Source of the DNA: Planctomycetota bacterium | GTDB lineage: Bacteria; Planctomycetota; Phycisphaerae; Phycisphaerales; UBA1924 | Direction: 5' to 3' | Assembly (NCBI GenBank): GCA_003696675.1 | Contig: RFGH01000074.1 | Span: 107,170 to 171,169 of the forward strand | Length of the DNA: 64,000 nucleotides | Shown: one piece after another, positions 44,581 through 60,361 of the stretch | How positions within the stretch are numbered: position 1 is the stretch's first letter | How the letters are laid out: every line of letters begins with the position of its first letter | The notes under the pieces: model-generated | The model's database searches: none | The model's input: the letters and a program-made list of their open reading frames with translations, nothing else | Told to the model about the DNA's origin: nothing | Translations under genes and position numbers: made by a program

Positions 44581-44606
44581 AGCCGCGATGGAAGTCGCGG
44601 CTTTTT
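44581..44606 (+). terminator. Intrinsic terminator after tRNA-Gly
   Basis: A perfect 8-base stem (AGCCGCGA / TCGCGGCT) with a 6-base loop is followed by five T residues at 44602-44606. It abuts the stop codon of the convergent galactokinase gene and so insulates the two transcripts. Confidence 0.92.
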
Positions 44607-45736
44607 CATGGTGTTATGCCTGTGACCTTTGCTCGCAGCGCGACGGCGTGTTGCGAGCGTTGTGACCGTATCAACAGCGATCGATCGACCAACTTCGTAT
44701 CAATCGCAGCGATGACGCATCCCCCGAAGCCGCCTCCGCTCATGCGTGCGCCGAGCACGCCTTTCGTGGATTGGAGTGCTTCGACCAGGCTGTCGACCTC
44801 GGGGCACGAAACCTGGTAGACATCGCGGAGCGAGGCGTGCGATGTGCTGAGCAGGCGGCCGAAGGCGGGCAGGTCGCATGCCCGGAGCGCGGCGATGGCG
44901 TCGAGGGTGCGGCGGTGTTCGCTGGTGACATGGCGGGCGGCCCGAGCGGCCTGAGAGTCGAGAGTGGAAAGATCGGACGCGTCGGCGTGGGCGAGGTAGG
45001 TCGCGCCGAGTGCAAGGCTGGCGCGCTCGCACCAGCGGCGGCGCTCGGCGTAGGCCCCGTCGGCCAGCGCATGGCGGACGCCGCTGTCGATGACGAGCAG
45101 CTCGAGCCTTTCCGGCAGCGGCACATGCGTGTGGGTCTCCGCGGCGCAGTCGAAGGCGAGGGCCGAGCCGGGGCGGGCGAGGACGGCGGCGGCCTGGTCC
45201 ATCAGGCCGCAGGGAACGCCGGCGAAGGCGTGCTCGGCGGACTGGCAGAGGCGTGCGAGATTGAGCCCGTCGATTGGGATATTGCAGGTATGGGCGGCCG
45301 CTCGGGCGATCGCAACCTCCATCGCGGCCGAGCTGGAGAGCCCCGCGCCGGGCGGGACATCGGAGTGGATATAGACGCGGCAGCCAGCGAGGGCGTCAAG
45401 CGGGGCGATGCCGGCCAGTCCGGCCAGCACGCCCGCGGCGTAGGACGCCCACGAGCCGACCGGGAACGGGTCGCCTGGAATCAGCGGGCGGTCGAGCGGG
45501 ATGGACGCAGTGCGATCGTCAAGGGTCGTGCTGATGAGGCAGGCGTCGGGCGTGGTCTGTTTCGGAAAGACCGCGGCGTGGCAGCAGAGGTCGAGGGCCA
45601 CGGGCAGGACGGTGCCTCCGCAGTAGTCGATGTGGTCGCCGATGAGATTGACGCGTCCGGGGGCGCGGGCGGAGGCGACAGGCTCGACGCCGTATCGTGA
45701 GCGGGCTGCGGCGAGGAATGACGGGTCGGCGGTCAT
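44606..45736 (-). CDS. galK: Galactokinase (GHMP family)
   Basis: A 376-residue kinase phosphorylating galactose at C1, the entry step of the Leloir pathway. The galactokinase signature appears at residues 25-41 as APGRVNLIGDHIDYCGG (Asp replaces the usual Glu in GEH), the GHMP ATP-binding motif as PPGAGLSSSAAMEVAIA, and the third motif as GARMSGGGFGGCVIA. LCQSAEHAFAGVPCGLMDQ contains the catalytic Asp. It overlaps the apbE gene by four bases (45733-45736). No galT or galE is adjacent, so the link to the neighbouring sugar genes is by position only. A related GHMP kinase with another sugar substrate is possible. Confidence 0.9.
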   Translation of the reverse strand: MTADPSFLAAARSRYGVEPVASARAPGRVNLIGDHIDYCGGTVLPVALDLCCHAAVFPKQTTPDACLISTTLDDRTASIPLDRPLIPGDPFPVGSWASYAAGVLAGLAGIAPLDALAGCRVYIHSDVPPGAGLSSSAAMEVAIARAAAHTCNIPIDGLNLARLCQSAEHAFAGVPCGLMDQAAAVLARPGSALAFDCAAETHTHVPLPERLELLVIDSGVRHALADGAYAERRRWCERASLALGATYLAHADASDLSTLDSQAARAARHVTSEHRRTLDAIAALRACDLPAFGRLLSTSHASLRDVYQVSCPEVDSLVEALQSTKGVLGARMSGGGFGGCVIAAIDTKLVDRSLLIRSQRSQHAVALRAKVTGITP

Positions 45737-46731
45737 GGGGTGTCCGCAGTGCTGACTTCGATGATTGCTTCCGGAAAGCGGGCGCGGAGATCCGGCAAGC
45801 CCTCGGGTCCGAGCACGCAGGCGGCGCTGGCGAGGGAGTCGGCGAGCCAGCCCTCGGGGGCGATGACGGTGGCTGCGACACGGCGCTCGATGCCGAAGCC
45901 CCTGCGTGGATCGAGGATGTGCGAGTAGCGATGGCCGCCGATATCGATGAATCGTTCGAGATCGCCCGATGTGGCAACGGCGGCGTTGGCGAGTCGGACG
46001 GTGCGCGCGCCGGCGACGCCGTCGCGGATCTCGACGGACCAGGCGTCGGTGCCGGGCGGTGGATCGCCCGCGCGGAGATCACCGCCAAAGTCGATGAGCG
46101 CGATGGGCAGGGCGTAATGGGTCAAAACGGCGAGGGCCTCGTCGGCGGCAAGCCCCTTGCCGATGCCGCCGAAGTCGAGACCCATGCCGACGACAGCCAA
46201 ACGGACGCGTTGGGCGTCGGAATTGAGTTCGATGTGGCGGTATCCGGAGCGGGTACGGGCTTCGGCGATGGTCTCGGGCGGTGGAAGGGCGCCGTCGCTA
46301 CGGGCCTTTCGCCAGAGTTTCGTGAGCGGCCCCATGGCCGGGTCGAACGCCCCATCTGTCTTCCGAGCAATATCGAGCGATTTGGCGAGGGCCTGCGCGA
46401 GATCCGGTGAGACCGTGTGCCACTCGCGGGGCGGAAGTCGTGTCAGTCGGGCGGCTTCGGAGTTTGGGTCGTAGTCGCTGAGGGCTTGTTCGAGCCGGTG
46501 GACGCGGTCAAAGGCGGCGGCGCAGGCTGCGGCCGCGGCGGGCTCGGAGGGGGCGTAGACCACGATGCGGCACTTTGAGCCCATAAGGACCCTTGCGTAT
46601 TCGTGGCGTGTCAAGGTAGGCTGGGCCTCCCCCGGGGCTGCGTTTCTCGCTGCCCGCGTCGGGGCGCATGACGGGACGAAGACGAGCAACAGCCCGAGGG
46701 ACAGGATGGCCGCGATTTGTTTGAAGTGCAT
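45733..46731 (-). CDS. apbE: FAD:protein FMN transferase lipoprotein (ApbE, copy 1)
   Basis: A 332-residue periplasmic lipoprotein that covalently attaches FMN to Thr/Ser of redox proteins. The start at 46731 gives a signal peptide ending in a lipobox (FVPSC, Cys22). Family motifs are intact: MGSKCRIVVYAP, KTDGAFDPAMGPL, LDFGGIGKGLAADEA, IDFGGDLRAG, AVATSGDLERFI and YSHILDPRRG. No flavin acceptor protein with a clear [S/T]xAT flavinylation site was seen in the window. Its 5' end overlaps the divergent FGE-like gene by 26 bases. Translation is coupled to galK. Confidence 0.92.
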   Translation of the reverse strand: MHFKQIAAILSLGLLLVFVPSCAPTRAARNAAPGEAQPTLTRHEYARVLMGSKCRIVVYAPSEPAAAAACAAAFDRVHRLEQALSDYDPNSEAARLTRLPPREWHTVSPDLAQALAKSLDIARKTDGAFDPAMGPLTKLWRKARSDGALPPPETIAEARTRSGYRHIELNSDAQRVRLAVVGMGLDFGGIGKGLAADEALAVLTHYALPIALIDFGGDLRAGDPPPGTDAWSVEIRDGVAGARTVRLANAAVATSGDLERFIDIGGHRYSHILDPRRGFGIERRVAATVIAPEGWLADSLASAACVLGPEGLPDLRARFPEAIIEVSTADTP

Positions 46732-47500
46732 GGCGTTCGGGGCCTTGGGTGTGGTGTGCTCGGCGGGCGCGTCCCAGCCCAGCGTAGCCGAAACAGTGAC
46801 GCGGACCATCCGTGTGCCAAACACGACGGTTGAGTTCACGATGATCCGGGTGCCCGGGGACGCCGGGGATGACCAGGAACCGGTCAGGGACCTATGGGTG
46901 CTGACGACCGAGGTGCCGTGGGAGTTGTACGACATCTATGTGTATGAGCTGGATCGCCCCGAGGGGGGCGATGCGGACGCCATCGCCCGCCCCAGCAAGC
47001 CGTATGTGCCGCCGGACCGGGGCTTCGGGCACGAAGGCTACCCCGCGATCAGCATGACCCGTGCGGCGGCGGAGGGGTTTTGCGACTGGCTGAGCCGCGC
47101 GATCGGGGTGTCATTCCGTCTACCCAGTGCATCGGAGTGGACGCATCTGGCGGGATCTGCGTCGGCGGTCGATGCCGAGGCGTGGACCAGCGCCAACAGC
47201 GAGCACAAGAGCCAGCCGGTGGCAAAGAAGCAGCCCAACGAATATGGGTTGTACGACACGGTCGGCAATGTGGCCGAGTGGGTCATGACGGACGGTCGGC
47301 GGCCGGTCGCGATGGGCGGAAGTTGGCGGGACGACCCGTCGTCGTGCACGGCAACTTCGATGCAGCAGCAGGACCGGAGCTGGAACGCGAGCGATCCACA
47401 GATCCCTAAGAGCAAGTGGTGGTTGGCCGACTGCAGCTGGGTCGGCTTCCGATTCGTCAGTGAGCAGGACCCGGCGGGTGAGGTGCACGATGACGAGTGA
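46706..47500 (+). CDS. Exported formylglycine-generating-enzyme-like (FGE-sulfatase/SUMF1) domain protein
   Basis: A 264-residue protein with a GAGGG box ahead of the ATG at 46706 and a Sec-type signal (MAFGALGVVCSAGASQPSVA inside it). The mature part is an FGE-sulfatase (C-type-lectin-like) fold: PVxxxISM..AEGFCDWLS is represented by YPAISMTRAAAEGFCDWLSR, then FRLPSASEWTHLAGSA, NEYGLYDTVGNVAEWV, MGGSWRDDPSSC and VGFRFV. Many such proteins are not formylglycine synthases but binding or regulatory proteins, and whether the catalytic Cys pair is complete cannot be settled by eye. It overlaps the next gene by 11 bases, so it belongs to the sugar operon. Confidence 0.85.
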   Translation: MAAICLKCMAFGALGVVCSAGASQPSVAETVTRTIRVPNTTVEFTMIRVPGDAGDDQEPVRDLWVLTTEVPWELYDIYVYELDRPEGGDADAIARPSKPYVPPDRGFGHEGYPAISMTRAAAEGFCDWLSRAIGVSFRLPSASEWTHLAGSASAVDAEAWTSANSEHKSQPVAKKQPNEYGLYDTVGNVAEWVMTDGRRPVAMGGSWRDDPSSCTATSMQQQDRSWNASDPQIPKSKWWLADCSWVGFRFVSEQDPAGEVHDDE

Positions 47501-48818
47501 ACGGAGCTGGTCGCGGCGTGAGTTCAATGCTGCGAGCCTGATGATCGGGGTCGGCGCGATTTTCGGATCGAGAGCCTTCGCGAAACGAACGGTGCCCGTC
47601 CGGGCCGACGGCTCGTTGCTGAAGGTTGGGGTGATCGGCTGCGGCGGACGCGGCACTGGCGCGGTGATCCAATCGCTGATGGCCGACGAGGGCAGCGTGC
47701 TGTGGTCTATGGGCGATCTGTTTCCGGAGCGGCTGGCACCTTGCCTGGAATATGTCCGGGGAACGGTGGCGGAAGACGCGGACGATCCCGGGACGGCGGT
47801 TGCGCACAAGATCCGGGTGGACGAGGACCGGAAGTTCAGCGGGTTTGACTGCTATCAGCAGGTGATCGATTCGGGCGTGGATGTGGTGATCCTGACCACG
47901 CCGCCGGCGTTTCGGCCGGAGCATCTGCGGGCGGCGGTTGAGGCCGGCAAGCACACATTCTGTGAGAAGCCTGTGGCCGTGGACGGCGCCGGTGTTCGAT
48001 CGGTCATCGAGTCGGCCCGGATTGCGAAGGAGAAGCGGCTGTCGCTGATGTCCGGCTTCTGCTGGCGGTATCAGGATCAGGTGACGGAGTGTCTGGAGCG
48101 GGTGCGGACGGGGGGCATCGGTGCGATCCGCGCGATCCAGACCACCTACAACACGACGGGATGGGTGGTCCCGAACCCGCGCAAGCCGGGCTGGAGCGAC
48201 GCGGAGTTCATGGCGCGGAACTGGCAGTATTTCACGCCGCTCTCGGGAGATCACATCGTCGAACAGGCGGTGCACGCGATCGATTGGCAGTCATGGGCGA
48301 TGGGGGATGCGCCGCCATTGAAGTGCTGGGGTGTGGGCGGGCGGCAGGCGCGGCCGGACACGCCGGAGACCGGCAATGTGTTCGATCACTTCTCGATCGT
48401 GTACGAGTATGCCGGGGGTGTGCGGGCGCACCACATGTGTCGACACTGGCCGGGCACGCCGTCGGACAACTCGGCGATGTTCCTCGGGAGCGACGGCATC
48501 TGCACGATGCAGCCGTGGCAGCAGTCGCACACCATCGAGGGTGCCACTCCCTGGCGGGGCACGGCCAAGTCCAACGACATGTACCAGCGCGAGCACGATG
48601 TGCTGTTCCGCGCGATCCGGGCTGGAGAGCCCGTGAACGACGGGGTTCGCATGGCACACTCGACGCTGCTGGCGGTGATGGGCCGCAAAGCCGCGTACAC
48701 GGGCCAGACCGTGACCTGGGAAGACGCGTTGAACGCTCAGGACGGGCTGAACGACGAGCCATGGGCATTCGGACCACGGCAGATCCCGATGGTCGCCAAG
48801 CCAGGAAAGCAGGCCTGA
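47490..48818 (+). CDS. Tat-exported Gfo/Idh/MocA oxidoreductase (1)
   Basis: A 443-residue NAD(P)-dependent oxidoreductase. The twin-arginine signal SRREFN (Arg9-Arg10) and a following hydrophobic stretch predict export in folded, cofactor-bound form. The Rossmann fold reads LKVGVIGCGGRGTGAVI; the catalytic EKP is at 159-161 (CEKPVAVD), and the second motif GDHIVEQAVHAIDW carries the conserved Asp and His. It is a close paralogue of the product of 49742-51019 (shared DRKF, GFD, YQQ and FRPEH-like blocks). The gene starts inside the FGE-like gene and lies two bases before a TIM-barrel gene. It probably oxidises a sugar hydroxyl, perhaps at C3. Confidence 0.93.
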   Translation: MTSERSWSRREFNAASLMIGVGAIFGSRAFAKRTVPVRADGSLLKVGVIGCGGRGTGAVIQSLMADEGSVLWSMGDLFPERLAPCLEYVRGTVAEDADDPGTAVAHKIRVDEDRKFSGFDCYQQVIDSGVDVVILTTPPAFRPEHLRAAVEAGKHTFCEKPVAVDGAGVRSVIESARIAKEKRLSLMSGFCWRYQDQVTECLERVRTGGIGAIRAIQTTYNTTGWVVPNPRKPGWSDAEFMARNWQYFTPLSGDHIVEQAVHAIDWQSWAMGDAPPLKCWGVGGRQARPDTPETGNVFDHFSIVYEYAGGVRAHHMCRHWPGTPSDNSAMFLGSDGICTMQPWQQSHTIEGATPWRGTAKSNDMYQREHDVLFRAIRAGEPVNDGVRMAHSTLLAVMGRKAAYTGQTVTWEDALNAQDGLNDEPWAFGPRQIPMVAKPGKQA

Positions 48819-48819
48819 T

Positions 48820-49731
48820 ATGACGGGGTTTGATCGCAGGACCTTCATGGGTCTGACCATCGCCGGTGCGGCGGGCTTGGCGTTGGGCAACGGAGTGTCG
48901 ACCATCCGACGCGACCCATGGATCCGCAAGGCACTCAAAGTCGGGATGATCGCTGGCGGGGAAACCCTCGCTGAAAAGTTCGCGATCGCCCGCGATGCCG
49001 GGTTCGACGGGATCGAGCTGGACAGCCCGGGTCCGATCGACAGGCCCGCTGTTCTAAGAGCGATGGAAGCCTCCGGATTGTCGGTGCCGGGCGTGGTGCT
49101 TTCAACGCACTGGAGCAAGCCGTTCAACCACCCTGACGCGGGCGTCCGGGCGGAAGCCGACGCGGCCCTCGAGATTGCGTTGCGCGACTGCAAATCGGTC
49201 GGGGGGACGAGCGTGCTTGTCGTGCCCGCGGTCGTGAACCAGTCGATGCCATACGCCGACGCGTACAGGCTCTCGCAGGAGGCCATGCGTCGGGCGGTCC
49301 CGCTGGCGGGCGAACTCGGCGTCTCGATCGCGTTCGAGAATGTGTGGAATAACTTTCTGCTCAGCCCGCTCGAGGCGGCCCGGTACTGCGACGAGCTGAA
49401 CGATGGTCTCGAGAAGCCGGTATTCGGCTGGCACTTCGACATCGGAAACATCGTCAACTACGGCTGGCCCGAGCAGTGGATCGAGACACTTGGCGAACGG
49501 ATTCTGAAACTGGATGTGAAGGATTTCAGCCGAACAAAGCGGAACGAGGAAGGACTGTGGAAAGGATTCGGCGTGGAGATCGGGGACGGAGAATGCGGAT
49601 GGGAGCGGGTCCGCGCCTCCCTGAACAAAGTCGGCTACCGCGGCTGGGCCGCGGCCGAGGTCGGGGGCGGGGATCTGGAACGACTGACCGACATCGCCCG
49701 GCGGATGGATCGGGTGTTTGACCAGGCCTGA
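48820..49731 (+). CDS. Tat-exported sugar phosphate isomerase/epimerase-like TIM-barrel protein (1)
   Basis: A 303-residue protein starting with a short Tat signal (FDRRTFMGLTIAGAAGLALG). The barrel (xylose-isomerase-like, AP endonuclease 2 superfamily) shows DAGFDGIELDSPGPIDRPA, a metal-type Glu in VSIAFENVWNNF, and the histidine/aspartate pair in FGWHFDIGNIV and ILKLDVKDFS, which fit a divalent-metal site. Substrates of exported members are not phosphorylated sugars; isomerase, epimerase or lyase chemistry on a keto-sugar is plausible. It begins two bases after the oxidoreductase gene. Confidence 0.9.
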   Translation: MTGFDRRTFMGLTIAGAAGLALGNGVSTIRRDPWIRKALKVGMIAGGETLAEKFAIARDAGFDGIELDSPGPIDRPAVLRAMEASGLSVPGVVLSTHWSKPFNHPDAGVRAEADAALEIALRDCKSVGGTSVLVVPAVVNQSMPYADAYRLSQEAMRRAVPLAGELGVSIAFENVWNNFLLSPLEAARYCDELNDGLEKPVFGWHFDIGNIVNYGWPEQWIETLGERILKLDVKDFSRTKRNEEGLWKGFGVEIGDGECGWERVRASLNKVGYRGWAAAEVGGGDLERLTDIARRMDRVFDQA

Positions 49732-49741
49732 GGAGCACCGA

Positions 49742-51019
49742 ATGAGCGACTGGACACGAAGAGACTTCATCCGCACCGCTGCCGGGACGGGCATCGCCGC
49801 GACGGTGCTGCCATCGTTCGCATCGGGCTGGACCAACGGCGGAATGGACACGGTACGCATCGGCGTGATCGGCTGCGGCGGACGCGGCACCGGGGCGGCA
49901 TACAACGCATTGGAGGCCCATCCTTCGACCCGGATCGTCGCCATGGCCGATCTTTTTGAGGATCGGCTGAACGGATCGCTCGGCTGGCTGAGTGAATCGG
50001 AGGACTTCGCCGGGCGGATCGATGTGGGCGATCGTAAGTTTGTGGGATTCGACGCGTACCAGCAACTTCTGACACAGAAGGACATCGATCTGGTGATCTT
50101 GGCAACGCCGCCCGGATTTAGACCGATGCACTTCGAGGCTGCCGTCAATGCCGGCAAGCATGTGTTCATGGAGAAGCCTGTCGCCGTCGATCCCGCGGGC
50201 GTTCGAACGGTCATCGCCGCGGCGGAACGGGCGAAGGCCCAGAAGCTCTCCGTGGTCGCGGGCACGCAGCGACGGCACGAGCCATGCTATCGAGAAGCTA
50301 TACAACGGCTGCGGAACGGGGACATCGGCGAGGTGGTCTCCGCACGGTGCGCTTGGAATCAGGGCGGGCTCTGGGTGCATGAACGCAAGCCGGAGTACAG
50401 CGATATGGAATGGCAGTGCCGCAACTGGCTGTACTTCTGCTGGCTCTCGGGCGACCACATCTGCGAGCAGCACATCCACAACCTCGATGTCGTCAACTGG
50501 GCTTTGGGCGCTCACCCCACCAGCGCCTACGGTATGGGCGGGCGTCAGGTGCGGACCGATGCGAAATACGGGAACATCTTCGATCACTTCGCGATCGAGT
50601 ACGAATACCCAGACGGAAGGCAGGCTCTGAGTTTCTGCCGGCAGCAGGACGGCACGGATGGGCGAGTCGAAGAGACGATCTTCGGAACGAAAGGTTCGCT
50701 GACAACACGCCCGGGATACGCTGCGATCGGCAACGGTTCATCGTGGCGGTTCTCCGGCGACAACGGGAACCCGTATGTGCATGAGCATGCGAACCTGCTC
50801 GCATCGGTCCGTGGCGACGGACCGTACCTGAACGAGGGCGTCCGTGTCGCGGAATCCACTCTGACGGCAATCATGGGCCGCATGAGCGCGTACACCGGCA
50901 AGCGGGTGACCTGGGAACAGGCGATGAACTCGTCGCTGGATCTCTCGCCCCCGGATTACGCCTTTGGCGATCTGCCGATCCGTCCGGTCCCCGAACCCGG
51001 GCGGACCCCGTTGATCTGA
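49742..51019 (+). CDS. Tat-exported Gfo/Idh/MocA oxidoreductase (2)
   Basis: A 425-residue oxidoreductase; the ATG at 49742 has a GAGGAG box. The signal has Arg6-Arg7 in WTRRDFIRTAAGTG. The nucleotide loop is IGVIGCGGRGTGAAYN, the catalytic EKP is at 144-146 (MEKPVAVD), and GDHICEQHIHNLDVVNW supplies the conserved Asp and His. It repeats much of the sequence of the oxidoreductase at 47490-48818, pointing to a tandem duplication with a TIM-barrel gene between the copies. The gene follows the first TIM-barrel gene with 10 bases between. It presumably oxidises a related but different sugar or position. Confidence 0.93.
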   Translation: MSDWTRRDFIRTAAGTGIAATVLPSFASGWTNGGMDTVRIGVIGCGGRGTGAAYNALEAHPSTRIVAMADLFEDRLNGSLGWLSESEDFAGRIDVGDRKFVGFDAYQQLLTQKDIDLVILATPPGFRPMHFEAAVNAGKHVFMEKPVAVDPAGVRTVIAAAERAKAQKLSVVAGTQRRHEPCYREAIQRLRNGDIGEVVSARCAWNQGGLWVHERKPEYSDMEWQCRNWLYFCWLSGDHICEQHIHNLDVVNWALGAHPTSAYGMGGRQVRTDAKYGNIFDHFAIEYEYPDGRQALSFCRQQDGTDGRVEETIFGTKGSLTTRPGYAAIGNGSSWRFSGDNGNPYVHEHANLLASVRGDGPYLNEGVRVAESTLTAIMGRMSAYTGKRVTWEQAMNSSLDLSPPDYAFGDLPIRPVPEPGRTPLI

Positions 51020-51047
51020 ATCCCGACCTTCACCGCAGGAGTAATCA

Positions 51048-51971
51048 ATGGACCGACGGAGTTTCATGGCGAGCGCTGGCGTGGCCGGGCTGGCGGCAAC
51101 CGCCGCGCTGGGCAAAGGCGAGGCGTCCTCTGGTGCGAGCATGGTGACCCGCGGCGAAGCATTCTCGATGAAGTTTGCTCCACACTTTGGCATGTTCCGC
51201 CATCACGCGGGCGACGACCCCGTCGCTCAACTGGAGTTTGCGGCGGACGAGGGATTCACCGCGTGGGAAGACAACGGCATGGGCGGTCGTTCGATCGAGG
51301 AGCAGGAACGCATCGCCAAAGCCATGGATCGGCTCGGCATGACAATGGGCGTATTCGTGCTCAACATGGGCACCGCCTGGGGCCCCCACTTCTCGCGGAA
51401 CAACGCGGACGATCGGGCGAAGTTTCTCGACGAAGCCCGGGCCGCCGTGGAGGTGGCCAAGCGGGTCAACGCGACCTGGACCACGGTCGTGCTGGGCACA
51501 CGAGAGCCCCGTATTCCGCTGGCCTATCAGACGGCCTACGCGGTCGAGTCGCTCCGCCGGGCCTGCGACATCCTTGAACCACACGGCATCGTGATGGTGC
51601 TCGAGCCACTCAACCCACGCGATCACCCGAATATGCTCTTGGCCGAGATGGGTCACGCGTTCCAGATCTGCCACGCGGTGAATAGCCCGTCCTGCAAGAT
51701 CCTGTGCGACCTCTATCACCAACAGGCCACCGAAGGCAATCTTGTGGATAACTTCGAGCGGTCGTGGGATCAGGTGGCGTACTTTCAAATCGGTGACAAC
51801 CCCGGGCGCTGCGAACCGACCACGGGTGAGATCGACTATCGAAACATCTTTACTCGCATCAAGCGTAAGGGATTCACCGGTGTTCTTGGGATGGAACACG
51901 GCAACTCGATGCCGGGCAAAGCTGGAGAACGCGCCGTCATCGACGCATACCGGGCCTGCGACCCGCGATAG
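51048..51971 (+). CDS. Tat-exported hydroxypyruvate-isomerase-like TIM-barrel protein (2)
   Basis: A 307-residue protein with a minimal Tat signal at the extreme N-terminus (MDRRSFMASAGVAGLAATAA). The barrel belongs to the Hyi branch: FAPHFGMFRHHAGDDPVAQL, EFAADEGFTAWEDNG, LEPLNPRDHPN (metal Glu), ILCDLYHQQATEGNL and FQIGDNPGRCEPTTGEIDY. It differs in these blocks from the product of 48820-49731, so the two TIM-barrel proteins belong to different subfamilies and the gene set alternates enzyme types. It should act in the periplasm. The function may be isomerisation or elimination of keto-sugars. Confidence 0.91.
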   Translation: MDRRSFMASAGVAGLAATAALGKGEASSGASMVTRGEAFSMKFAPHFGMFRHHAGDDPVAQLEFAADEGFTAWEDNGMGGRSIEEQERIAKAMDRLGMTMGVFVLNMGTAWGPHFSRNNADDRAKFLDEARAAVEVAKRVNATWTTVVLGTREPRIPLAYQTAYAVESLRRACDILEPHGIVMVLEPLNPRDHPNMLLAEMGHAFQICHAVNSPSCKILCDLYHQQATEGNLVDNFERSWDQVAYFQIGDNPGRCEPTTGEIDYRNIFTRIKRKGFTGVLGMEHGNSMPGKAGERAVIDAYRACDPR

Positions 51972-52009
51972 ACTCTGCGTCACACCGAAACACACACCGG
52001 GAGAAACGC

Positions 52010-53209
52010 ATGCGCATCCGCCGAGCACTCGCCGCACTCGCTCTTACTGCTTCTGCCGTGTTTGTCGGGGAGGCCCAGGCTTCCGACGACGGCTTCGTCG
52101 ACCTCTTCAACGGCAAGGATCTCTCCGGCTGGACGACCGCGGGTGAAGAAGGCTCGTGGGGCGTTCGGGGCGGCGAACTTGTCACGCTCAAGCCCGGCAA
52201 GGGCTGGTGGCTCCGCACCGACCGGATGTACCGCGACTTTGAGCTCACGCTCGATTTCTGGATGCCCGAGGGCGGCAACTCCGGAGTGGGACTCCGAGGC
52301 TCGTCCGGCGGCGATCCGGCGTTCACCGGATTCGAGGTGCAAATCCTCGACACCGCCGGTCAGGACCCGGATGTGCACAACTGCGGCGCTGTCTATGAGG
52401 CCATCGCTCCCAGCGAGATGGCTGTCTACCCGGCCGGGCGATGGAACACCTATCGCATCCGACTCGTTGGTGATGTTTTGGATGTCTGGCTCAACGGACG
52501 GCACATCCATGATCGCCAGCGGCTCGATGACCGCGGCTACTTCCGCCAGGAAGCCAACAAGCTCCCCCTGAACACCCGGGCCACGACCGGCTACATCGCC
52601 CTGCAGGACCACGGCCACCCCTTCCGTTTTCGCAACATCCGCATCAAGGACCTCTCGCCCGATCCCGAGCCCCAGGGCATGAAGCCGCTCATCACTGGCA
52701 TGGGAAGCGACGGTCAGCCCGAAGGCTGGTTCGCCGAAGACAATACCGAATGGACCATCGAGGACGGCGGCACGCTGGTCGGGCGAAATGGGCCCGGCCA
52801 CCTATTCACCGACGCGACCTTCCGAGACTTCGAGATGCGGGCGCTCGTAAAAGTCAACGAGCGGGGTAACTCAGGCATGTACTTCCGAGTGAAGCCCAAT
52901 CCTGATCCGAACAACCCTTGGCCGATCGGTTACGAGGCTCAGATCGACCAGCACGACCCCAAGAACTTTACCGGCTGCATCTACAATGCGGCCTGGCCGA
53001 CCTATATCAAAGGGCCGATCACCCGCGACAACGCCTGGTTCGACTACCGCATCCGCGTGGAAGGTGACCACATCCGCACTTGGATCAATGGCGTGCCGAT
53101 GGTGAATACCTTCCTCGATACCTATGACGCCGGACACTTGGCTGTGCAGGGACACCACGACACCAATGTCATCATGTACAAAGACATCCGCGTCCTGCCG
53201 CTGAACTGA
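52010..53209 (+). CDS. Secreted double-domain DUF1080 (3-keto-disaccharide hydrolase-type) protein
   Basis: A 399-residue secreted protein with a Sec signal (residues 1-25, ending AQASDD). Two DUF1080 beta-jelly-roll domains follow: the first opens FVDLFNGKDLSGWTTAGE and has GNSGVGLRGSSGG and VQILDTAGQDPDVHNCGAVYE; the second has GNSGMYFRVKPNPDPNN and YEAQIDQHDPKNFTGCIYN. Both keep the Glu/Asp-containing EVQI(L)D and EAQID strands typical of the family. Some family members act on 3-keto-glycosides. It starts 38 bases after the second TIM-barrel gene and its stop abuts the stop of the convergent oxidoreductase gene. Confidence 0.92.
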   Translation: MRIRRALAALALTASAVFVGEAQASDDGFVDLFNGKDLSGWTTAGEEGSWGVRGGELVTLKPGKGWWLRTDRMYRDFELTLDFWMPEGGNSGVGLRGSSGGDPAFTGFEVQILDTAGQDPDVHNCGAVYEAIAPSEMAVYPAGRWNTYRIRLVGDVLDVWLNGRHIHDRQRLDDRGYFRQEANKLPLNTRATTGYIALQDHGHPFRFRNIRIKDLSPDPEPQGMKPLITGMGSDGQPEGWFAEDNTEWTIEDGGTLVGRNGPGHLFTDATFRDFEMRALVKVNERGNSGMYFRVKPNPDPNNPWPIGYEAQIDQHDPKNFTGCIYNAAWPTYIKGPITRDNAWFDYRIRVEGDHIRTWINGVPMVNTFLDTYDAGHLAVQGHHDTNVIMYKDIRVLPLN

Positions 53210-54352
53210 TCAGACGGGCGTCCACGCCGAGTTGTTCTGCGCGCTGCGGACGCAGGCCTCGACAAAGCGAACACCCAGCAGACCGTCCTCGGCGGTCGGC
53301 ACTTCGCTCGCCATCGGGCCCGGCTCGCGGCTGTCGCGTTTGGATTCGATTGCCTCGATCACCCCGAGGTACAGGTTGGCGAACGCCTCAATAAACCCCT
53401 CCGGATGCCCGCTAGGCAACCTCGTCGCGTGACCCGCCCGCTCGGACAGACGGTCGCTACCGCGGGAGAGGACGGTCTTCGAGCCGTCGAGCGCCGTCAG
53501 CGTGAGCCGCTCGGGCTGTTCCTGCCGCCAGATCAGCCCGCCGGTCTCGCCGTATACCCGCAGCGACAGCCCGTTGGCCTCACCGACACACACCTGCGAA
53601 CAGGTCAGCGATCCCTTGGCCCCGTCGGACAATCGCAGCAGCACGCTCGCGTCGTCGTCCAGAACACGACCTCGCCCGAAGCTCGTCAGCTCGGCGCACA
53701 CCGTCTCGACTTCGAGCCCGGTGACGAATCGCAGCAGTTGTTCGGCATGGGTTCCGATGTCCCCCAGAGACCCGCCGATTCCGGCGCGGGCCGGGTCCGT
53801 CCGCCACGACGCCTGCTTCTGCCCGCTGGTTTCCAGTTCGGTGGCCAGCCATCCCTGGTGGTACTCGGCGTATACCTTACGGATACGACCGAACATCCCA
53901 CCGCGCACCAGCTCCGCCGCATGGCGGACCATCGGGTAGCCCGAGTAGTTGTATGTGACTGCACACACCAAGCCCTTCGAAGACGCGAGGTCTCTCAGCT
54001 CGGACGCCTGATCGCTCGTGATGGTGAACGGCTTGTCGCAGACAACATGAAGCCCCGCCTCCAGGCACGCCTTCGTCGCGGGGTAGTGTGTGTCGTTCGG
54101 CGTCACGATCACGACGAAGTCGGCCGGATCCGACCGCGCCGACTCCTCGCGGGCGAGTTCCTCGAATGATCCGTACACGCGATCCGAAGCGACGCCCAGC
54201 TCGTAACCGGACTGTCGGGACCGTTCCGGCGTTGAGGAAAACGCCCCGGCGACCAGTTCGGCCCGCCCGTCCAGATTGAGGGCCTTGCGGTGGACCGCTC
54301 CGATGAACGAACCCGTGCCGCCACCGATCATCGCATAGGTTAGACGCTTCAT
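53210..54352 (-). CDS. Cytoplasmic Gfo/Idh/MocA oxidoreductase (3)
   Basis: A 380-residue oxidoreductase without any export signal, so it acts in the cytoplasm. The fold begins [18 protein letters not shown], the catalytic motif is DKP (Asp106-Lys107-Pro108, CDKPFTIT) and [17 protein letters not shown] carries the conserved Asp and His. It resembles inositol- and sugar-dehydrogenase-like members. Its start overlaps the stop of the isomerase gene upstream by four bases. The pair is transcribed opposite to the Tat set and may handle the product after import. Confidence 0.92.
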
Positions 54353-55353
54353 GCCTCGTCCTTCTCGAACGCCGAATCGAATGCACGCCCGGCCGGGGCG
54401 AAGTCGAGGGCGCGGACGAACTCAACCGCCTCGGCCGCACCGTGCTCGCGGTCCATGGCGCTGTCCTCCCATTCCACGCTCAGCGGGCCCTGGTAGTTGA
54501 TCCGGTTTAAAGCCCGGATGATGCCCTCGAAATCCACATCGCCCCGCCCCGGGGATCGGAAGTCCCAGCCCCGCCGGTGGTCGCCGAAGGACAGATGCCC
54601 GCCGAGGATGGAGTTGCTCCCGTCCAAGCGCGTGACCGCGTCCTTGATGTGGGCGTGGAAGATCCGCTCGGGGAACCGGTCGATAAGGCGGACCGGATCA
54701 ACCCCCTGCCAGAGCAGATGAGATGGATCGAAGTTGATACCGAACGCCGGGTGGTCGTCGACAGCCGCGAGGGCCCGCTCCATCGTGTGGATGTCGTAGG
54801 CGATCTCGGTCGGGTGCACTTCGAGGGCGAAGCAAACCCCGTGCTGCTGGAATGCGTCGAGGATGGGCCTCCACCGGTCCGCGAAGGCGCGATAGCCCGC
54901 GTCGATTTCCTCCTGGCTCGTCGGGGGAAAGAAATACAGCTTGTGCCACACCGGGGAGCCGGTGAATCCGTTGACGACGCACAGCCCCATCCGCTTTGCG
55001 GCTTCCGCGGTATCGATCATCTCCTGCGCCGCCCGCTCCTGGACACCGTCCGGCCTGCCGTCGCCCCAGACCCTCGCCGGCACGATGGACTTGTGCCGGG
55101 TGTCGATCGGGTCGGACACGGCCTGACCGACCAGGTGATTCGAGATCGCCCAGCATTTGAGTCCATGCCGGGCCAGCAGATCTTGGCGTCCCTGGCAATA
55201 GCTGTCCTCACTCAATGCCCGGTCGACCTCGAAATGGTCCCCCCAACAGGCGAGTTCGAGCCCGTCGTACCCCCAATCCGCGGCCTTCTCGGCGAGAACC
55301 TCCAGCGGCAGATCGGCCCACTGGCCGGTGAAGAGCGTGACGGGTCGGGGCAT
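54349..55353 (-). CDS. Cytoplasmic sugar phosphate isomerase/epimerase-like TIM-barrel protein (3)
   Basis: A 334-residue TIM-barrel protein without a signal; the ATG at 55353 has a GGAG box and a slightly longer frame does not. Metal-site blocks are [32 protein letters not shown] and [15 protein letters not shown], and [14 protein letters not shown] completes the family pattern. It closely resembles IolE/IolI-type or 2-keto-inositol/keto-sugar isomerases. It overlaps the oxidoreductase gene and faces, divergently, the MFS transporter gene across about 120 bases. Confidence 0.92.
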
Positions 55354-55475
55354 GGGATGGCTCCGAATCAATTTCGGTACGGATGGGGCAAGTCCCGGTC
55401 GCCAATGGCAACCGGTTTCCAGTATGCTGGCCGTTCACGGTTCTCGTGTCAACGACCCGCAGGCAGGATACACCA

Positions 55476-56756
55476 ATGGGCGAACAAGGCCAACGATCCG
55501 GGGCGACCATCGCCGCCCAACTCTCCGTGATGATGTTTCTGCAGTTCTTCCTGTGGGGGGCGTGGTATGTCACGATGGGCCCCTACATGAACGAGGTCGG
55601 GATGGCCTCGGCGATCAAATGGGCGTACACAGTCGGGCCGATCGCTGCCATTGCCTCGCCGTTCTTTCTGGGCATGATTGCCGACCGGTTCTTTGCCACC
55701 GAGCGTGTGCTCGGTGTGATGCACTTTCTCGGCGGGCTGTGCCTGTTTCTCGCACCGACGGCCGCGAAGCAATCATCGACGCTGTTCGTCGTGATGATCC
55801 TGGCCCACATGCTCTGCTACATGCCGACACTCGGGCTGACCAGTTCACTGGCGATGCACAACATGACCGACTCGGAGAAGCAGTTCCCGCTGATCCGCGT
55901 GTTCGGCACGATCGGGTGGATCGCCGCCAACTGGGTGATCTCGTACCTCGCATTCGACAAGTCACCCAACACGTTCTATGTCGCAGGGGGATCGGCCCTG
56001 CTGCTCGGTTTCTTCAGCTTCACCCTTCCGCACACGCCCGCACCAGCGAACGGAAAGCCGTTCTCGGCCCGAGACGCTCTCGGACTGGACTCGCTCGTCC
56101 TCCTGAAGAACCCCTCATTCGCGGTATTCAGTCTCTGCGCTTTCCTGATTTGTATTCCGCTCGCGGCGTATTACGCCTACGCGGGCCAGTATGTCGGCGA
56201 GTCGGGCTTCGACAAGATCGCCAGCACCATGTCCTTCGGACAAATGTCCGAGATCTTCTTTATGCTCGTGATGCCCCTCTGCTTCGCGCGGCTCGGCGTC
56301 AAGTGGATGCTCGCGGTCGGCATGCTCGCCTGGGTCGTTCGCTACGGCCTCTTCGCCGGAGCGGCGGATGATCAGGTCAAATGGATGGTGCTCGGCGGCG
56401 TCATCCTCCACGGCATCTGCTACGACTTCTTCTTCGTCACCGGTCAGATCTATGTCGACAACAAAGCCGGCCCGAAAATCCGCGGGCAGGCCCAGGGCTT
56501 CTTCGTCCTGATCACCCAAGGAGTGGGCATGCTGATCGGCGCCCAGCTGATCGGCTACCTCGTCGCGTGGAAAACCACCACCGTCGGAGAAGTCTCCACC
56601 ATCGACTGGAAATCCGTCTGGATGTACCCCGCTGCCTTCGCCCTGGCCATCCTCGTCGTCTTCGTCCTCCTGTTCCGAGACAAGGGCATGAAACAGGCCA
56701 CAGTTCCCGAGGCTCCGCCCGCGCCCGCAGCACCCGGAGAGACCATTTCTTCTTGA
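55476..56756 (+). CDS. MFS transporter, nucleoside:H+ symporter (NupG) family
   Basis: A 426-residue protein with about 12 hydrophobic helices, started at the ATG at 55476. The N-terminal segment LSVMMFLQFFLWGAWYVTMG and the inner loop GVMHFLGGLCLFLAP resemble the nucleoside-H+ symporter family (Nuc_H_symport), and GTIGWIAANWVISYL matches it too. Family members in planctomycetes often sit in sugar loci, so the substrate could be a sugar or keto-sugar derived from the periplasmic enzymes. The promoter must lie in the short divergent space shared with the isomerase gene. Confidence 0.88.
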   Translation: MGEQGQRSGATIAAQLSVMMFLQFFLWGAWYVTMGPYMNEVGMASAIKWAYTVGPIAAIASPFFLGMIADRFFATERVLGVMHFLGGLCLFLAPTAAKQSSTLFVVMILAHMLCYMPTLGLTSSLAMHNMTDSEKQFPLIRVFGTIGWIAANWVISYLAFDKSPNTFYVAGGSALLLGFFSFTLPHTPAPANGKPFSARDALGLDSLVLLKNPSFAVFSLCAFLICIPLAAYYAYAGQYVGESGFDKIASTMSFGQMSEIFFMLVMPLCFARLGVKWMLAVGMLAWVVRYGLFAGAADDQVKWMVLGGVILHGICYDFFFVTGQIYVDNKAGPKIRGQAQGFFVLITQGVGMLIGAQLIGYLVAWKTTTVGEVSTIDWKSVWMYPAAFALAILVVFVLLFRDKGMKQATVPEAPPAPAAPGETISS

Positions 56757-56850
56757 ACTGCGGATCAGCCGCGCGGTAGGTTGTCCGTCCCGCATCCACA
56801 CCCACACCACCCGGCCACGAGACCCGGCCGATCCACGAGGAGATCACCCC

Positions 56851-58194
56851 ATGACTGACCACACCCCCACTCCACCCGCGGCCAGCCCCACCCGCCGCCA
56901 GTTTCTCGGCGCCACCGCCTTGGCCGGTGCCGCGGCCGTCCTCGGCTCGGCCGGCTCAGCCGCCAACGCCCGCACCACAACCCGCCTGCTCCCGACGGTC
57001 AGCAGCGCCCGCGTCCGTGCTCCCGGCAAGAGCGAGACCATCCGCATGGCCGTCATCGGCACCGGCGGCATGGGTACAGGCCACGCGCACGCCTTCATGA
57101 ACTTCGCGCAGCGTGAGATGGAAAATGTCCAGGTCGTTGCGTTGGCCGATGTCTGCGACGAGCGCCGCCAGAACTGCCTGAATGCCTGTCTTGAGAAGCA
57201 GCCCGGTGTCGATGTCCAGAGCACCCGCGACTACCGCGAGGTCCTCCAGCGGGACGACATCCATGGCGTCCTGATCGCATCGCCGGAACACTGGCACGCC
57301 CAGCACGCGATCGATGCGCTGACCGCCGGCAAGGATGTCTATTGCGAGAAGCCGATGACCCTGCGTCTCGATCAGGCCATGCAGGTTCGCAAGGCGGTGC
57401 TTGATCACCCCGAGCAGATCTTCCAGATCGGCACGCAGATGATCATGCTGCCAAAGTACCAGGAGGCCCGCAAGGCGATCAAGGCTGGCAAGATCGGTAC
57501 GCCCATCTGGTCCCAGACCTCGTACTGCCGCAACACGCCCAGCGGCGAGTGGAACTACTACGGCATCAACCCCGACTGGAAGCCCGGGGAAAACCTCGAC
57601 TGGAACGCCTGGCTCGGCCATCTCGGACCGCGCGAGTGGGACCCGAAGGTCTACGCCCGTTGGCGCCGCTATCGCGACTTCTCCACCGGCATCATCGGCG
57701 ACCTCTTGGTCCATGTGATGACGCCCATGATCTTCGCTCTCGACGCCGGCTGGCCCACCAAGGTCGCCGCAACCGCGACGCACATGGTCGATCACGACAT
57801 GGAGAACCATGACCAGATCAATATGAATGTCGTCTTTGAAACCGGCCACACCATGGTCGTCGCCGGCTCCACCAACAACGAGGTCGGCTTGGAGACCATG
57901 ATCCGCGGCAATATGGCCAACATGTACCTCAACGGTCGGCATGTCGATATCCGCCCCGAGCGCGTCTATGTCGACGATGTCGACCGCGAGGAGATCACCT
58001 GCCCGGACATCGGCAATGATCAGGACCAGCTCCGTCTCAACTGGCTGTCCTGCATGCGCACCCGCGAGCCCGCCGCGTCGAATATCGACCTCGCCAGCAA
58101 GGTCATGGTCGCCGTCGACCTCGCGACCCGATCGGCCTGGGACGGCCACACCTATACCTTCGACCCGGCCACCATGCAGGCCAAGCAGGTCTGA
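56851..58194 (+). CDS. Tat-exported Gfo/Idh/MocA oxidoreductase (4)
   Basis: A 447-residue oxidoreductase. The Tat signal is SPTRRQFLGATALAGAAAVL (Arg15-Arg16). The Rossmann loop reads IRMAVIGTGGMGTGHAHAF, the catalytic EKP is at 166-168 (CEKPMTLR), and the second site is GIIGDLLVHVMTPMIFAL. A Trp/Tyr-rich insertion (SGEWNYYGINPDWKPGENLD) marks a planctomycete-type subfamily. It lies 94 bases after the MFS gene and two bases before a second ApbE gene. A redox role in the periplasm, with the NAD(P) held tightly, is expected. Confidence 0.92.
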   Translation: MTDHTPTPPAASPTRRQFLGATALAGAAAVLGSAGSAANARTTTRLLPTVSSARVRAPGKSETIRMAVIGTGGMGTGHAHAFMNFAQREMENVQVVALADVCDERRQNCLNACLEKQPGVDVQSTRDYREVLQRDDIHGVLIASPEHWHAQHAIDALTAGKDVYCEKPMTLRLDQAMQVRKAVLDHPEQIFQIGTQMIMLPKYQEARKAIKAGKIGTPIWSQTSYCRNTPSGEWNYYGINPDWKPGENLDWNAWLGHLGPREWDPKVYARWRRYRDFSTGIIGDLLVHVMTPMIFALDAGWPTKVAATATHMVDHDMENHDQINMNVVFETGHTMVVAGSTNNEVGLETMIRGNMANMYLNGRHVDIRPERVYVDDVDREEITCPDIGNDQDQLRLNWLSCMRTREPAASNIDLASKVMVAVDLATRSAWDGHTYTFDPATMQAKQV

Positions 58195-58196
58195 CC

Positions 58197-59132
58197 GTGT
58201 CAGCAGACGCCGGACCGGTCATGCGAGCGTTTGACGCCATGGGCACGCGCTTCGAGTGCGTGCTCGTGGCGTTCTCACGCGCGATGCAGCCGTTCGAGCC
58301 GGTCGCTATCGCCGAAGAGATCGAGCTGCTCATCAAGGACTGGCACGCCCGACTCTCCGTATTCGATGAGACATCGTGCGTCTCAGTGATCAACCGCATC
58401 GCCGCCGACACGCCCGTCACCATCGACCGAGAGCTGCTCGCCCTGATCCGGCGCTGCCTGCACGCCGCTCGCATGACGGACGGGGCGTTCGACATCTCGC
58501 TGGGCTCGCTCATGCAAGCCCACGGCTTCCGGCCCACACCCGCAGAGACAGCACCCGCCCGCTTCGGCTGGCGTTCGGTCCGCCTGGACGAACACGCCAG
58601 CACTATCCGATTCACCCAGCCCGGCATCCGGCTGGACTTCGGCGGTGTCGCCAAGGGCTTCGCGCTCGATCTGGCCAGGAACGAACTCCGCGCGCAGGGC
58701 CTTGTGTCCGGGCTGCTCCACGGCGGGACTTCATCCGTCGTCGGCATCGGGCTCAGCCCCGACGGCCGACCGTGGCGTGTCCGGGCTACGCCGGACGACC
58801 CGTCCGCCCCGGTCGTCGACCTGACGGATCTGGCAATGTCCGTTTCCGCCCCCACCGGCCGAATGGCCAACGGCAAAGGCCACATCATGGACGGTCGGTC
58901 GGCGTCGCCTTCGAGCGGTTGCCTGGCCGCCTGCGTGGTCGGTCCCTCGGCCGAGGTATGCGAGGTCTGGTCCACCACGCTCGTTGTCGAGCCGGCCCTC
59001 CTCGATGCACTCCCACCCGGATTCCAGGCATCCATCCGTCGCGACGACCTTTGGTCGTCGAGCGGACAGCCCGTTCCTTTCGATCCCTCTCCCTCCATTT
59101 GTTCAGAGGTCCACGAACATGTCCGAGTTTGA
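58197..59132 (+). CDS. Degenerate ApbE-family protein (copy 2)
   Basis: A 311-residue ApbE-family protein starting at GTG 58197, two bases past the upstream stop (an ATG at 58221 is possible). It has no signal peptide or lipobox. Recognisable parts are MGTRFECVLVA, MTDGAFDISLGSL and LDFGGVAKGFALD. The later flavin and metal motifs are changed: LIDxGGDI is LLHGGTSSV, ATSGxxER is SVSAPTGR and HIIDPRTG is HIMDGRSA. FMN transfer may therefore be lost or altered. Its end overlaps the next oxidoreductase gene by 14 bases. Confidence 0.85.
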   Translation: MSADAGPVMRAFDAMGTRFECVLVAFSRAMQPFEPVAIAEEIELLIKDWHARLSVFDETSCVSVINRIAADTPVTIDRELLALIRRCLHAARMTDGAFDISLGSLMQAHGFRPTPAETAPARFGWRSVRLDEHASTIRFTQPGIRLDFGGVAKGFALDLARNELRAQGLVSGLLHGGTSSVVGIGLSPDGRPWRVRATPDDPSAPVVDLTDLAMSVSAPTGRMANGKGHIMDGRSASPSSGCLAACVVGPSAEVCEVWSTTLVVEPALLDALPPGFQASIRRDDLWSSSGQPVPFDPSPSICSEVHEHVRV

Positions 59133-60345: not shown

Positions 60346-60361
60346 GGACGCCGCTTCACTC

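Follow-up and report, generated by a model that had tools for sequence, protein, structure and literature searches.

A two-module planctomycetal locus that may direct oxidative sugar or glycoside breakdown on both sides of the inner membrane

A 3-keto-glycoside route outside the cytoplasm has been described before, both from the BT2156-BT2160 cluster of Bacteroides thetaiotaomicron and from the LacABC plus DUF1080 system. The former, a disaccharide/glucosinolate cluster, encodes the periplasmic glycoside 3-dehydrogenase BT2158 (PMC11300592) and BT2157, a characterised 3-ketotrehalose hydrolase of the DUF1080 family (PMC9007349), as well as a dehydrogenase of another family, BT_2159. In the lactose route of Caulobacter, 3-oxidation by LacABC is periplasmic, DUF1080 hydrolysis is proposed to be periplasmic also, and a transporter, two epimerases and a reductase are encoded nearby (PMC9007349). 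Additionally, the lgdA-B1-B2-C levoglucosan operon and the Agrobacterium GlycDH operon encode four-enzyme sets, each with two Gfo-type dehydrogenases and two TIM-barrel enzymes, for oxidation, elimination, hydration and reduction (PMC7676230, PMC10628242); these enzymes are not reported to be exported, and the four-enzyme set includes no FGE, ApbE or DUF1080 protein.

Here, a locus of approximately 15 kb with likenesses to each of these systems was analysed, situated at 45.7-61.1 kb of the window (the whole 64,000-nucleotide stretch of planctomycetal DNA that was analysed) and comprising two modules. Module A is made up of ApbE1, an FAD:protein FMN transferase-like lipoprotein (45733..46731, minus strand; PF02424, 7.5e-67; lipobox VPSC), followed on the plus strand by an FGE-like protein (46706..47500; PF03781, 2e-13), the Gfo/Idh/MocA dehydrogenase Gfo1 (47490..48818), the xylose-isomerase-like, UlaE-like TIM barrel TIM1 (48820..49731), Gfo2 (49742..51019), a Gfo1 paralogue with 44% identity, and TIM2 (51048..51971), which resembles hydroxypyruvate isomerase and tagatose 3-epimerase. 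Module B starts with a secreted protein that carries a pair of DUF1080 (3-keto-disaccharide hydrolase) domains (52010..53209, plus strand; PF06439, 1.1e-83). Next are a signal-less, cytoplasmic Gfo/Idh/MocA dehydrogenase (53210..54352, minus strand), for which the best NCBIfam model is levoglucosan dehydrogenase, far below cut-off, and a similarly signal-less IolE-like TIM barrel (54349..55353, minus strand), the genes of which overlap by 4 bp. The remainder of module B, all on the plus strand, encodes an MFS importer of the Nuc_H_symport family (55476..56756; PF03825, 2.3e-108), the Tat-type dehydrogenase Gfo3 (56851..58194), ApbE2, a divergent ApbE-family protein with no signal peptide (58197..59132), the Tat-type Gfo/Idh/MocA protein Gfo4 (59119..60345), and a hydrophobic protein that has a single CxxCH haem-binding motif and matches nothing in Pfam (60362..61126), a gene for which also follows Gfo4 in two related loci (L131 and L132). 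A galactokinase-like GHMP kinase gene (44606..45736, minus strand; PF10509, PF00288 and PF08544) shares 4 bp with the end of ApbE1, although it is uncertain whether it forms part of the locus.

Around 13 kb of the locus contains five of the nine Gfo domains above cut-off in the genome, three of its six TIM barrels, both of its ApbE genes and its only DUF1080 protein. The preliminary description had confined the system to six genes at 46706-53209. All six were found, running in one direction from the FGE-like gene to the DUF1080 gene with gaps of 1, 10, 28 and 38 bp and one overlap of 11 bp, but the interval is too narrow and covers only one side of the locus, to which ApbE1 and the genes at 53210-61126 also belong. 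The B. thetaiotaomicron cluster is not known to contain a counterpart of ApbE, the FGE-like protein or the Tat-type quartet.

Gfo1, TIM1, Gfo2 and TIM2 contain the twin-arginine motifs SRREF, DRRTF, TRRDF and DRRSF, one per protein and each ahead of a moderately hydrophobic stretch, bearing out the Tat signals originally ascribed to them. A twin-arginine motif of the form RRx-hydrophobic precedes the catalytic domain in 54/57 relatives of Gfo1, 125/130 of Gfo2, 31/34 of TIM1 and 26/28 of TIM2 (236/249 in total), and in none of five relatives of the neighbouring cytoplasmic Gfo. With TatC encoded in the genome, all four enzymes are predicted to be Tat substrates. The FGE-like and DUF1080 proteins have Sec-type N-termini, in agreement, for the latter, with the Sec secretion previously proposed, and the two DUF1080 domains are evident from the match to PF06439 (280.3 bits versus a gathering score of 26.8). 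The idea that the whole route lies outside the cytoplasmic membrane fared less well, since the DUF1080 stop codon is immediately followed by the signal-less Gfo/TIM pair (53210-55353), and this pair in turn by the MFS importer; judged from these gene products, the route is probably not wholly extracytoplasmic.

On balance, the locus is probably a system for oxidative breakdown of sugars or glycosides, with its steps divided between the two sides of the inner membrane. The periplasm would house the module A proteins plus the double DUF1080 protein, Gfo3 and Gfo4 of module B. There, Tat-exported Gfo enzymes, folded and already loaded with NAD, would oxidise the glycoside at C3, for which Gfo3 appears the best single candidate, and the divalent-metal TIM barrels and the DUF1080 protein would cleave the activated bond via elimination and hydration. 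The (3-keto) sugar released in this way may then enter through the MFS carrier, with finishing reactions in the cytoplasm conducted by the signal-less Gfo/TIM pair; from the galactokinase encoded alongside, galactose might be one of the products. In this division of labour the MFS and cytoplasmic Gfo/TIM proteins resemble the transporter, epimerases and reductase near the Caulobacter genes, although in that organism oxidation is performed by membrane-bound LacABC, and PF13618 (Gluconate_2-dh3) is absent from the present genome, ruling out a LacABC dehydrogenase encoded elsewhere within it.

The active sites of both module A dehydrogenases appear intact, with the Rossmann motif GCGGRG, the catalytic K and the E/H pair all present; residues K160/E258/H262 of Gfo1 and K145/E242/H246 of Gfo2 are invariant in alignments of 47 and 39 rows, respectively. 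D76 of Gfo1 is conserved, and because an Asp follows the second beta-strand the cofactor of both Gfo1 and Gfo2 is predicted to be NAD as opposed to NADP. The same residue distinguishes them from the Zymomonas glucose-fructose and Caulobacter aldose-aldose oxidoreductases, which are also Gfo/Idh/MocA proteins and match structurally (Z 33), with identities of only ∼18-23%. The Zymomonas enzyme binds NADP tightly, recycles it internally and is exported by Tat. Since cytoplasmic enzymes cannot recycle exported NADH, the exported dehydrogenases of the present locus might similarly regenerate bound cofactor internally, or might alternatively donate electrons to a carrier, flavin or haem, whose maturation would be the task of the ApbE protein found with each module.

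Closed cofactor cycling within a single active site forms the basis of a different interpretation, namely that each of Gfo1, Gfo2 and perhaps also Gfo4 is an oxidoreductive glycosidase complete in itself, like those of GH109/GH188, and would oxidise, eliminate, hydrate and re-reduce with bound NAD+, requiring neither an electron acceptor nor a partner enzyme and leaving the TIM barrels to act on the released sugars. Such a cycle is compatible with export, the Gfo1 model has its closest structural counterparts in the NAD-dependent glycoside hydrolases 8qc5 and 8qc2 (Z 35.7-35.5), and Gfo4 matches GH109 enzyme 6t2b at 7e-8 while lacking the catalytic Lys of the dehydrogenase EKP motif (ECP here, EAP in L131 and L132). 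However, oxidoreductive glycosidases and levoglucosan dehydrogenase are tied as best matches to the Gfo1 model (Z 35.7-35.1), DgpA likewise being within Z 1 of the top, at just 15-21% identity; moreover, TIM barrels are often encoded beside Gfo1/Gfo2, and the presence of ApbE would be left without a reason. This interpretation is considered unlikely.

Returning to the proposed split pathway, Gfo3, which is outside the six-gene interval, is closest in sequence among the Gfo proteins of the locus to solved glycoside-dehydrogenase structures (8tdf/8tdh, 1e-17) and nearest to the BT_2158 family. The overall likeness to the B. thetaiotaomicron cluster, in which Gfo dehydrogenases and DUF1080 similarly make up an extracytoplasmic route, does not extend to the curated models, as no protein of the locus reaches the BT_2158 or BT_2159 equivalog cut-offs. 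Gfo3 is the best match to the BT_2158 glycoside 3-dehydrogenase model (NF058561), with 105.7 bits against a cut-off of 750, and the cytoplasmic Gfo is the best match to levoglucosan dehydrogenase (NF052479), with 102 bits against 650. Gfo1 and Gfo2 both score highest against inositol 2-dehydrogenase, again far below cut-off, and assignment of the locus proteins as BT2158/BT2159, levoglucosan or inositol dehydrogenases was accordingly rejected. Since no equivalog cut-off was reached for any model, both the reaction and its regiochemistry are proposed from family resemblance. A further resemblance is to the lgd operon, with its Gfo-type dehydrogenases and TIM-barrel enzymes of the sugar phosphate isomerase/epimerase family, although the levoglucosan dehydrogenase cut-off is missed here.

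Metal-binding sites of the E-D-(H/Q)-E type are intact or nearly so in the exported TIM barrels, as predicted from alignments. Ligands E186/D221/Q247/E283 of TIM2 are invariant in 16 sequences, as are E173/D207/E280 of TIM1 in 25, among which the third ligand (D232 here) is D in 19 and H in six. TIM2 matches D-tagatose 3-epimerase and the 3-keto-D-glucoside 4-epimerase 6wn6, and the cytoplasmic TIM barrel matches IolE, far below cut-off. Together with the inositol 2-dehydrogenase scores of Gfo1 and Gfo2, these matches could feasibly reflect epimerisation or degradation of a sugar or cyclitol with no glycosidic cleavage, in which oxidation by one Gfo is followed by the action of a TIM barrel, either as an epimerase of the keto sugar, in the manner of a 3-keto-glucoside 4-epimerase, or as an inosose dehydratase, and then by reduction by a second Gfo. 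This seems rather improbable, however, given that all of the supporting models are far under cut-off, and that the DUF1080 protein, which matches 8tda/8rr2, and the LacA/LacC-type genes of relatives indicate glycosides.

These LacA/LacC-type genes came to light from the genomic context of module A relatives. In a Rhodothermales genome (L147), an operon-like series comprises genes for GMC, Gluconate_2-dh3, TIM, cytoplasmic Gfo and TIM, FGE, Gfo, ApbE, Gfo, TIM1, TIM and TIM2, and a similar series that includes MFS is present in the cultured Sphingobacterium paucimobilis HER1398 (L171). The GMC oxidoreductase and Gluconate_2-dh3 are the Pfam families of the LacA/LacC-type glucoside 3-dehydrogenase, and sharing of an operon with them supports a 3-keto-sugar role for the core, and with it the tie to the 3-keto-glycoside route proposed at the outset. 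PF13618 was detected in 2/61 genomes searched, and its absence from the present genome means that the link is via relatives only.

The alternation of Gfo and TIM genes, by comparison, did not hold as the defining unit of module A. TIM1, TIM2 and DUF1080 are variable and many homologous loci lack them, so the central task of the module may be something other than bond cleavage, whereas ApbE, the FGE-like protein and a Tat-type Gfo are constant and occur in that order in 42/60 loci, with three orientations of ApbE. This triad also occurs in other Planctomycetota, Acidobacteria, Fimbriimonadaceae (Armatimonadota), Rhodothermales and Sphingobacterium, and no further neighbour was common to more than seven loci in either neighbour search. 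Within module B, the cytoplasmic Gfo/TIM pair lies within 10 kb of a DUF1080 gene in 16/23 relatives having both. In most relatives the two modules are distant from one another or fall on different contigs, with DUF1080 near Gfo1 in 4/17 genomes, and taken with the frequent lack of TIM barrels from module A this could mean that they are functionally unrelated; DUF1080, the cytoplasmic pair, MFS and Gfo3 would then constitute the 3-keto-glycoside system, and module A would serve, for example, in electron transfer or envelope modification. This is deemed very unlikely, since the modules form a single series in L147 and are adjacent here, in L064 and in L070.

ApbE1 retains the TSGD...H..DP active-site signature, which is conserved in 68 sequences, and ApbE occurs in 40/40 relatives with the Gfo1/2 family compared with 4/21 without it (Fisher test, uncorrected for phylogeny). 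The known FMN_bind and NqrB/RnfD acceptors (PF04205 and PF03116) are absent from this genome and from all 37 genomes of family f1 searched. No full DxxSGAT-type flavinylation motif was found in the proteins of the locus, only SGA[ST] lacking the Asp pattern at the front in the TIM2 signal region (SSGAS) and the MFS N-terminus (RSGATI), plus a weak SGGT in Gfo4, and the corresponding DNA pattern was no commoner genome-wide than in a reversed control (51 versus 49). The FGE-like protein has the formylglycine/C-type-lectin fold (human FGE, Z 17.7). Despite this agreement in fold, a role as a sulfatase-maturating enzyme was rejected because the invariant catalytic Cys pair was not found; the family shows no invariant or nearly invariant Cys, and no invariant His, in 61 sequences.

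A tentative and somewhat doubtful possibility is that ApbE, the FGE-like protein and the Tat-type Gfo constitute an undescribed exported sugar-dehydrogenase system, in which ApbE would attach FMN covalently to a new acceptor, such as the FGE-like subunit or a Gfo, and the flavin would re-oxidise Gfo-held NADH, with haem proteins and the respiratory chain as recipients of the electrons. Retention of the triad across phyla in several orientations, the tracking of Gfo genes by ApbE where known acceptors are absent, and the fusion of a di-haem cytochrome region to two FGE-like homologues of verrucomicrobial origin speak for such a system; the lack of a canonical flavinylation motif in the triad speaks against it. 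No description of an ApbE-FGE-Gfo cluster was found in the literature searched, although supplementary tables of ApbE surveys may list it uncommented.

Exported NAD-dependent dehydrogenases pose the question of how NADH is re-oxidised where no soluble NAD pool exists, and the grouping of a dehydrogenase, a flavin transferase and a lectin-fold protein, in genomes with no known client for the transferase, opens this question to direct testing and could bring to light a previously unrecognised class of flavinylated protein. With this locus, planctomycetes join the bacteria in which glycosides are expected to be broken down oxidatively instead of by hydrolysis. The type of pathway is a known one, but here its division between periplasm and cytoplasm is suggested, and the exported dehydrogenases are consistently paired with a flavin-attaching enzyme.

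All six genes of the tightly packed operon proposed in the preliminary description (46706-53209, on contig C147 of a 3.28 Mb genome that is 92% complete) were found as described, with minimal spacing: an overlap of 11 bp, then gaps of 1, 10, 28 and 38 bp. On the basis of a Gfo2 scan, whose nearest named matches are Phycisphaerales/Phycisphaerae MAGs, the host almost certainly belongs to this group of planctomycetes. The assignment of Tat signals to both Gfo/Idh/MocA proteins (Gfo1, 47490-48818; Gfo2, 49742-51019) and both TIM barrels (TIM1, 48820-49731; TIM2, 51048-51971) was likewise borne out by a twin-arginine signal on all four; the genome encodes TatC, and the FGE-like and DUF1080 (52010-53209) proteins have Sec-type N-termini. 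Since the RRx-hydrophobic motif ahead of the catalytic domain is kept in relatives of Gfo1 (54/57), Gfo2 (125/130), TIM1 (31/34) and TIM2 (26/28), the Tat-type signals represent a selected feature.

The locus, however, extends past this interval on both sides. Upstream of, and divergent from, the FGE-like gene is ApbE1 (45733-46731, minus strand), a lipoprotein flavin transferase gene whose end overlaps by 4 bp a galactokinase-like gene (44606-45736), the latter a possible hint at galactose as a product. The predicted starts of ApbE1 and the FGE-like gene overlap by 26 bp (46706-46731), or share CATG if the FGE-like protein starts at Met9, leaving no promoter space between them; one of the two starts is probably wrong. 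Directly past the DUF1080 stop codon, on the opposite strand, are a Gfo (53210-54352) and a TIM barrel (54349-55353) without signals, followed by an MFS importer (55476-56756), Gfo3 (Tat; 56851-58194), the signal-less ApbE2, Gfo4 (Tat) and a hydrophobic, membrane-type protein with one CxxCH and no Pfam match (60362-61126). The last, which is also found behind Gfo4 in the related loci L131 and L132 (40% identity), possibly represents a new haem protein family. Of the genome's nine Gfo domains above the cut-off the locus holds five, and of its six TIM barrels three; both ApbE genes and the single DUF1080 protein also lie here. Because the locus includes a cytoplasmic Gfo/TIM pair together with the importer, the proposal that the whole route lies outside the membrane is unlikely. 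The original observation is confirmed, and its interpretation partly supported.

When 121 related genomes were searched with Gfo1, its family turned up in 68, mostly as two, usually adjacent, paralogues. Among the 60 loci then read, FGE-like and Gfo genes co-occur in 49, and are joined by ApbE in 42, while TIM1, TIM2 and DUF1080 are variable. ApbE may be divergent upstream or convergent downstream, or, as in L100 and L101, it may close the same operon; this variety points to function as opposed to inherited gene order. The main partner of the DUF1080 gene is the cytoplasmic pair: the two lie within 10 kb of each other in 16 of the 23 genomes that have both, against 4/17 for DUF1080 and Gfo1. 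Module A was accordingly defined as ApbE1-FGE-Gfo1-TIM1-Gfo2-TIM2 and module B as the remainder. The two adjoin in the host genome and in loci L064 and L070, and form a single series in L147.

The functions given here for the locus enzymes are inferences. The catalytic Lys and acidic/His pair are retained in Gfo1 and Gfo2, where NAD is the cofactor predicted by an Asp that follows the second strand. For the Gfo1 model (pLDDT 91.9), the match to oxidoreductive glycosidases is as good as that to levoglucosan dehydrogenase (Z between 35.7 and 35.1, at rmsd 2.7-2.9 over 327-333 residues), such that a dehydrogenase and a self-contained NAD-dependent glycosidase are not separable by fold alone. The TIM2 site, E-D-Q-E, is invariant; that of TIM1 is E-D-(D/H)-E. 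Gfo3 is the nearest of the locus Gfo proteins to characterised glycoside dehydrogenases (BT_2158 family, 105.7 bits; PDB 8tdf and 8tdh, 1e-17), the two structures belonging to 2024 work on the gut metagenome, concerned with glycosidases that act by oxidation, elimination and hydration. In Gfo4 (59119-60345) the catalytic Lys is lost, being replaced by Cys (ECP) here and by Ala (EAP) in L131 and L132; a dehydrogenase role cannot be assumed, and the protein may be a non-dehydrogenase or GH109-like enzyme. The combination of two oxidoreductases with two isomerase/epimerase-like proteins is that of the levoglucosan and Agrobacterium GlycDH operons, in which it carries out oxidation, elimination, hydration and reduction (PMC7676230; PMC10628242).

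ApbE is present in 40/40 genomes with the Gfo1/2 family versus 4/21 without (n = 61; Fisher 1e-11, a value that ignores phylogeny). Three of these four (G001, G003 and G022) have the module B cytoplasmic TIM, with ApbE within 10 kb of it in G001 and G022. FMN_bind occurs in 6/61 genomes and NqrB/RnfD in 8/61, with neither in the searched genomes of the host's own family, and none of the locus proteins scanned has D-x-x-[ST]-G-A-[ST], the motif recognised by ApbE (PMC12052999), in full. Hence an apparently intact ApbE, which follows the exported Gfo genes, is without a known client in the host genome. Clusters of apbE lacking known electron-transfer partners have been described (PMC11334425); no description of an ApbE-FGE-Gfo cluster was found in the literature searched. 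ApbE2 (58197-59132), encoded between two Tat-Gfo genes, has no signal peptide and altered GGD and SGD motifs, and may be degenerate or, alternatively, load a Tat substrate prior to its export.

The FGE-like fold resembles a Treponema variable lectin-like protein, PvdO and FGE (Z 22.1-17.7). The homologues compared have no invariant Cys or His, which rules out FGE itself and makes an EgtB-type iron enzyme improbable; the protein likely serves in binding or as a scaffold. Two homologues from verrucomicrobial MAGs (L161:2370-4157 and L167:6355-8178) carry an N-terminal di-haem region with two CxxCH motifs, identified as PSCyt1 in L161, and these fusions hint at a link between the family and electron transfer.

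The strongest evidence that the genes would handle 3-keto sugars is their sharing of series with GMC and Gluconate_2-dh3 genes. LacA and LacC, subunits of the glucoside/lactose 3-dehydrogenase, belong to these two families. LacABC and a DUF1080 partner have been described (PMC9007349). In L147, from a Rhodothermales MAG (L147:100-13027), twelve co-directional genes join these to both modules, in the order GMC oxidoreductase, Gluconate_2-dh3, Tat TIM barrel, cytoplasmic Gfo, cytoplasmic TIM, FGE-like, Tat-Gfo, ApbE, Tat-Gfo, TIM1, TIM barrel and TIM2; the cytoplasmic Gfo and TIM are 52% and 62% identical to their counterparts in the window, and the series offers a good model system. The series in L171 (Sphingobacterium paucimobilis HER1398) comprises FGE-like, Tat-Gfo, ApbE, TIM2, MFS, GMC, Tat-Gfo and Gluconate_2-dh3. 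This kind of pathway is already known, its extracytoplasmic form included; what is new is the conserved core of ApbE, FGE-like and Tat-Gfo proteins, the distribution of this core across phyla and the split layout of the locus.
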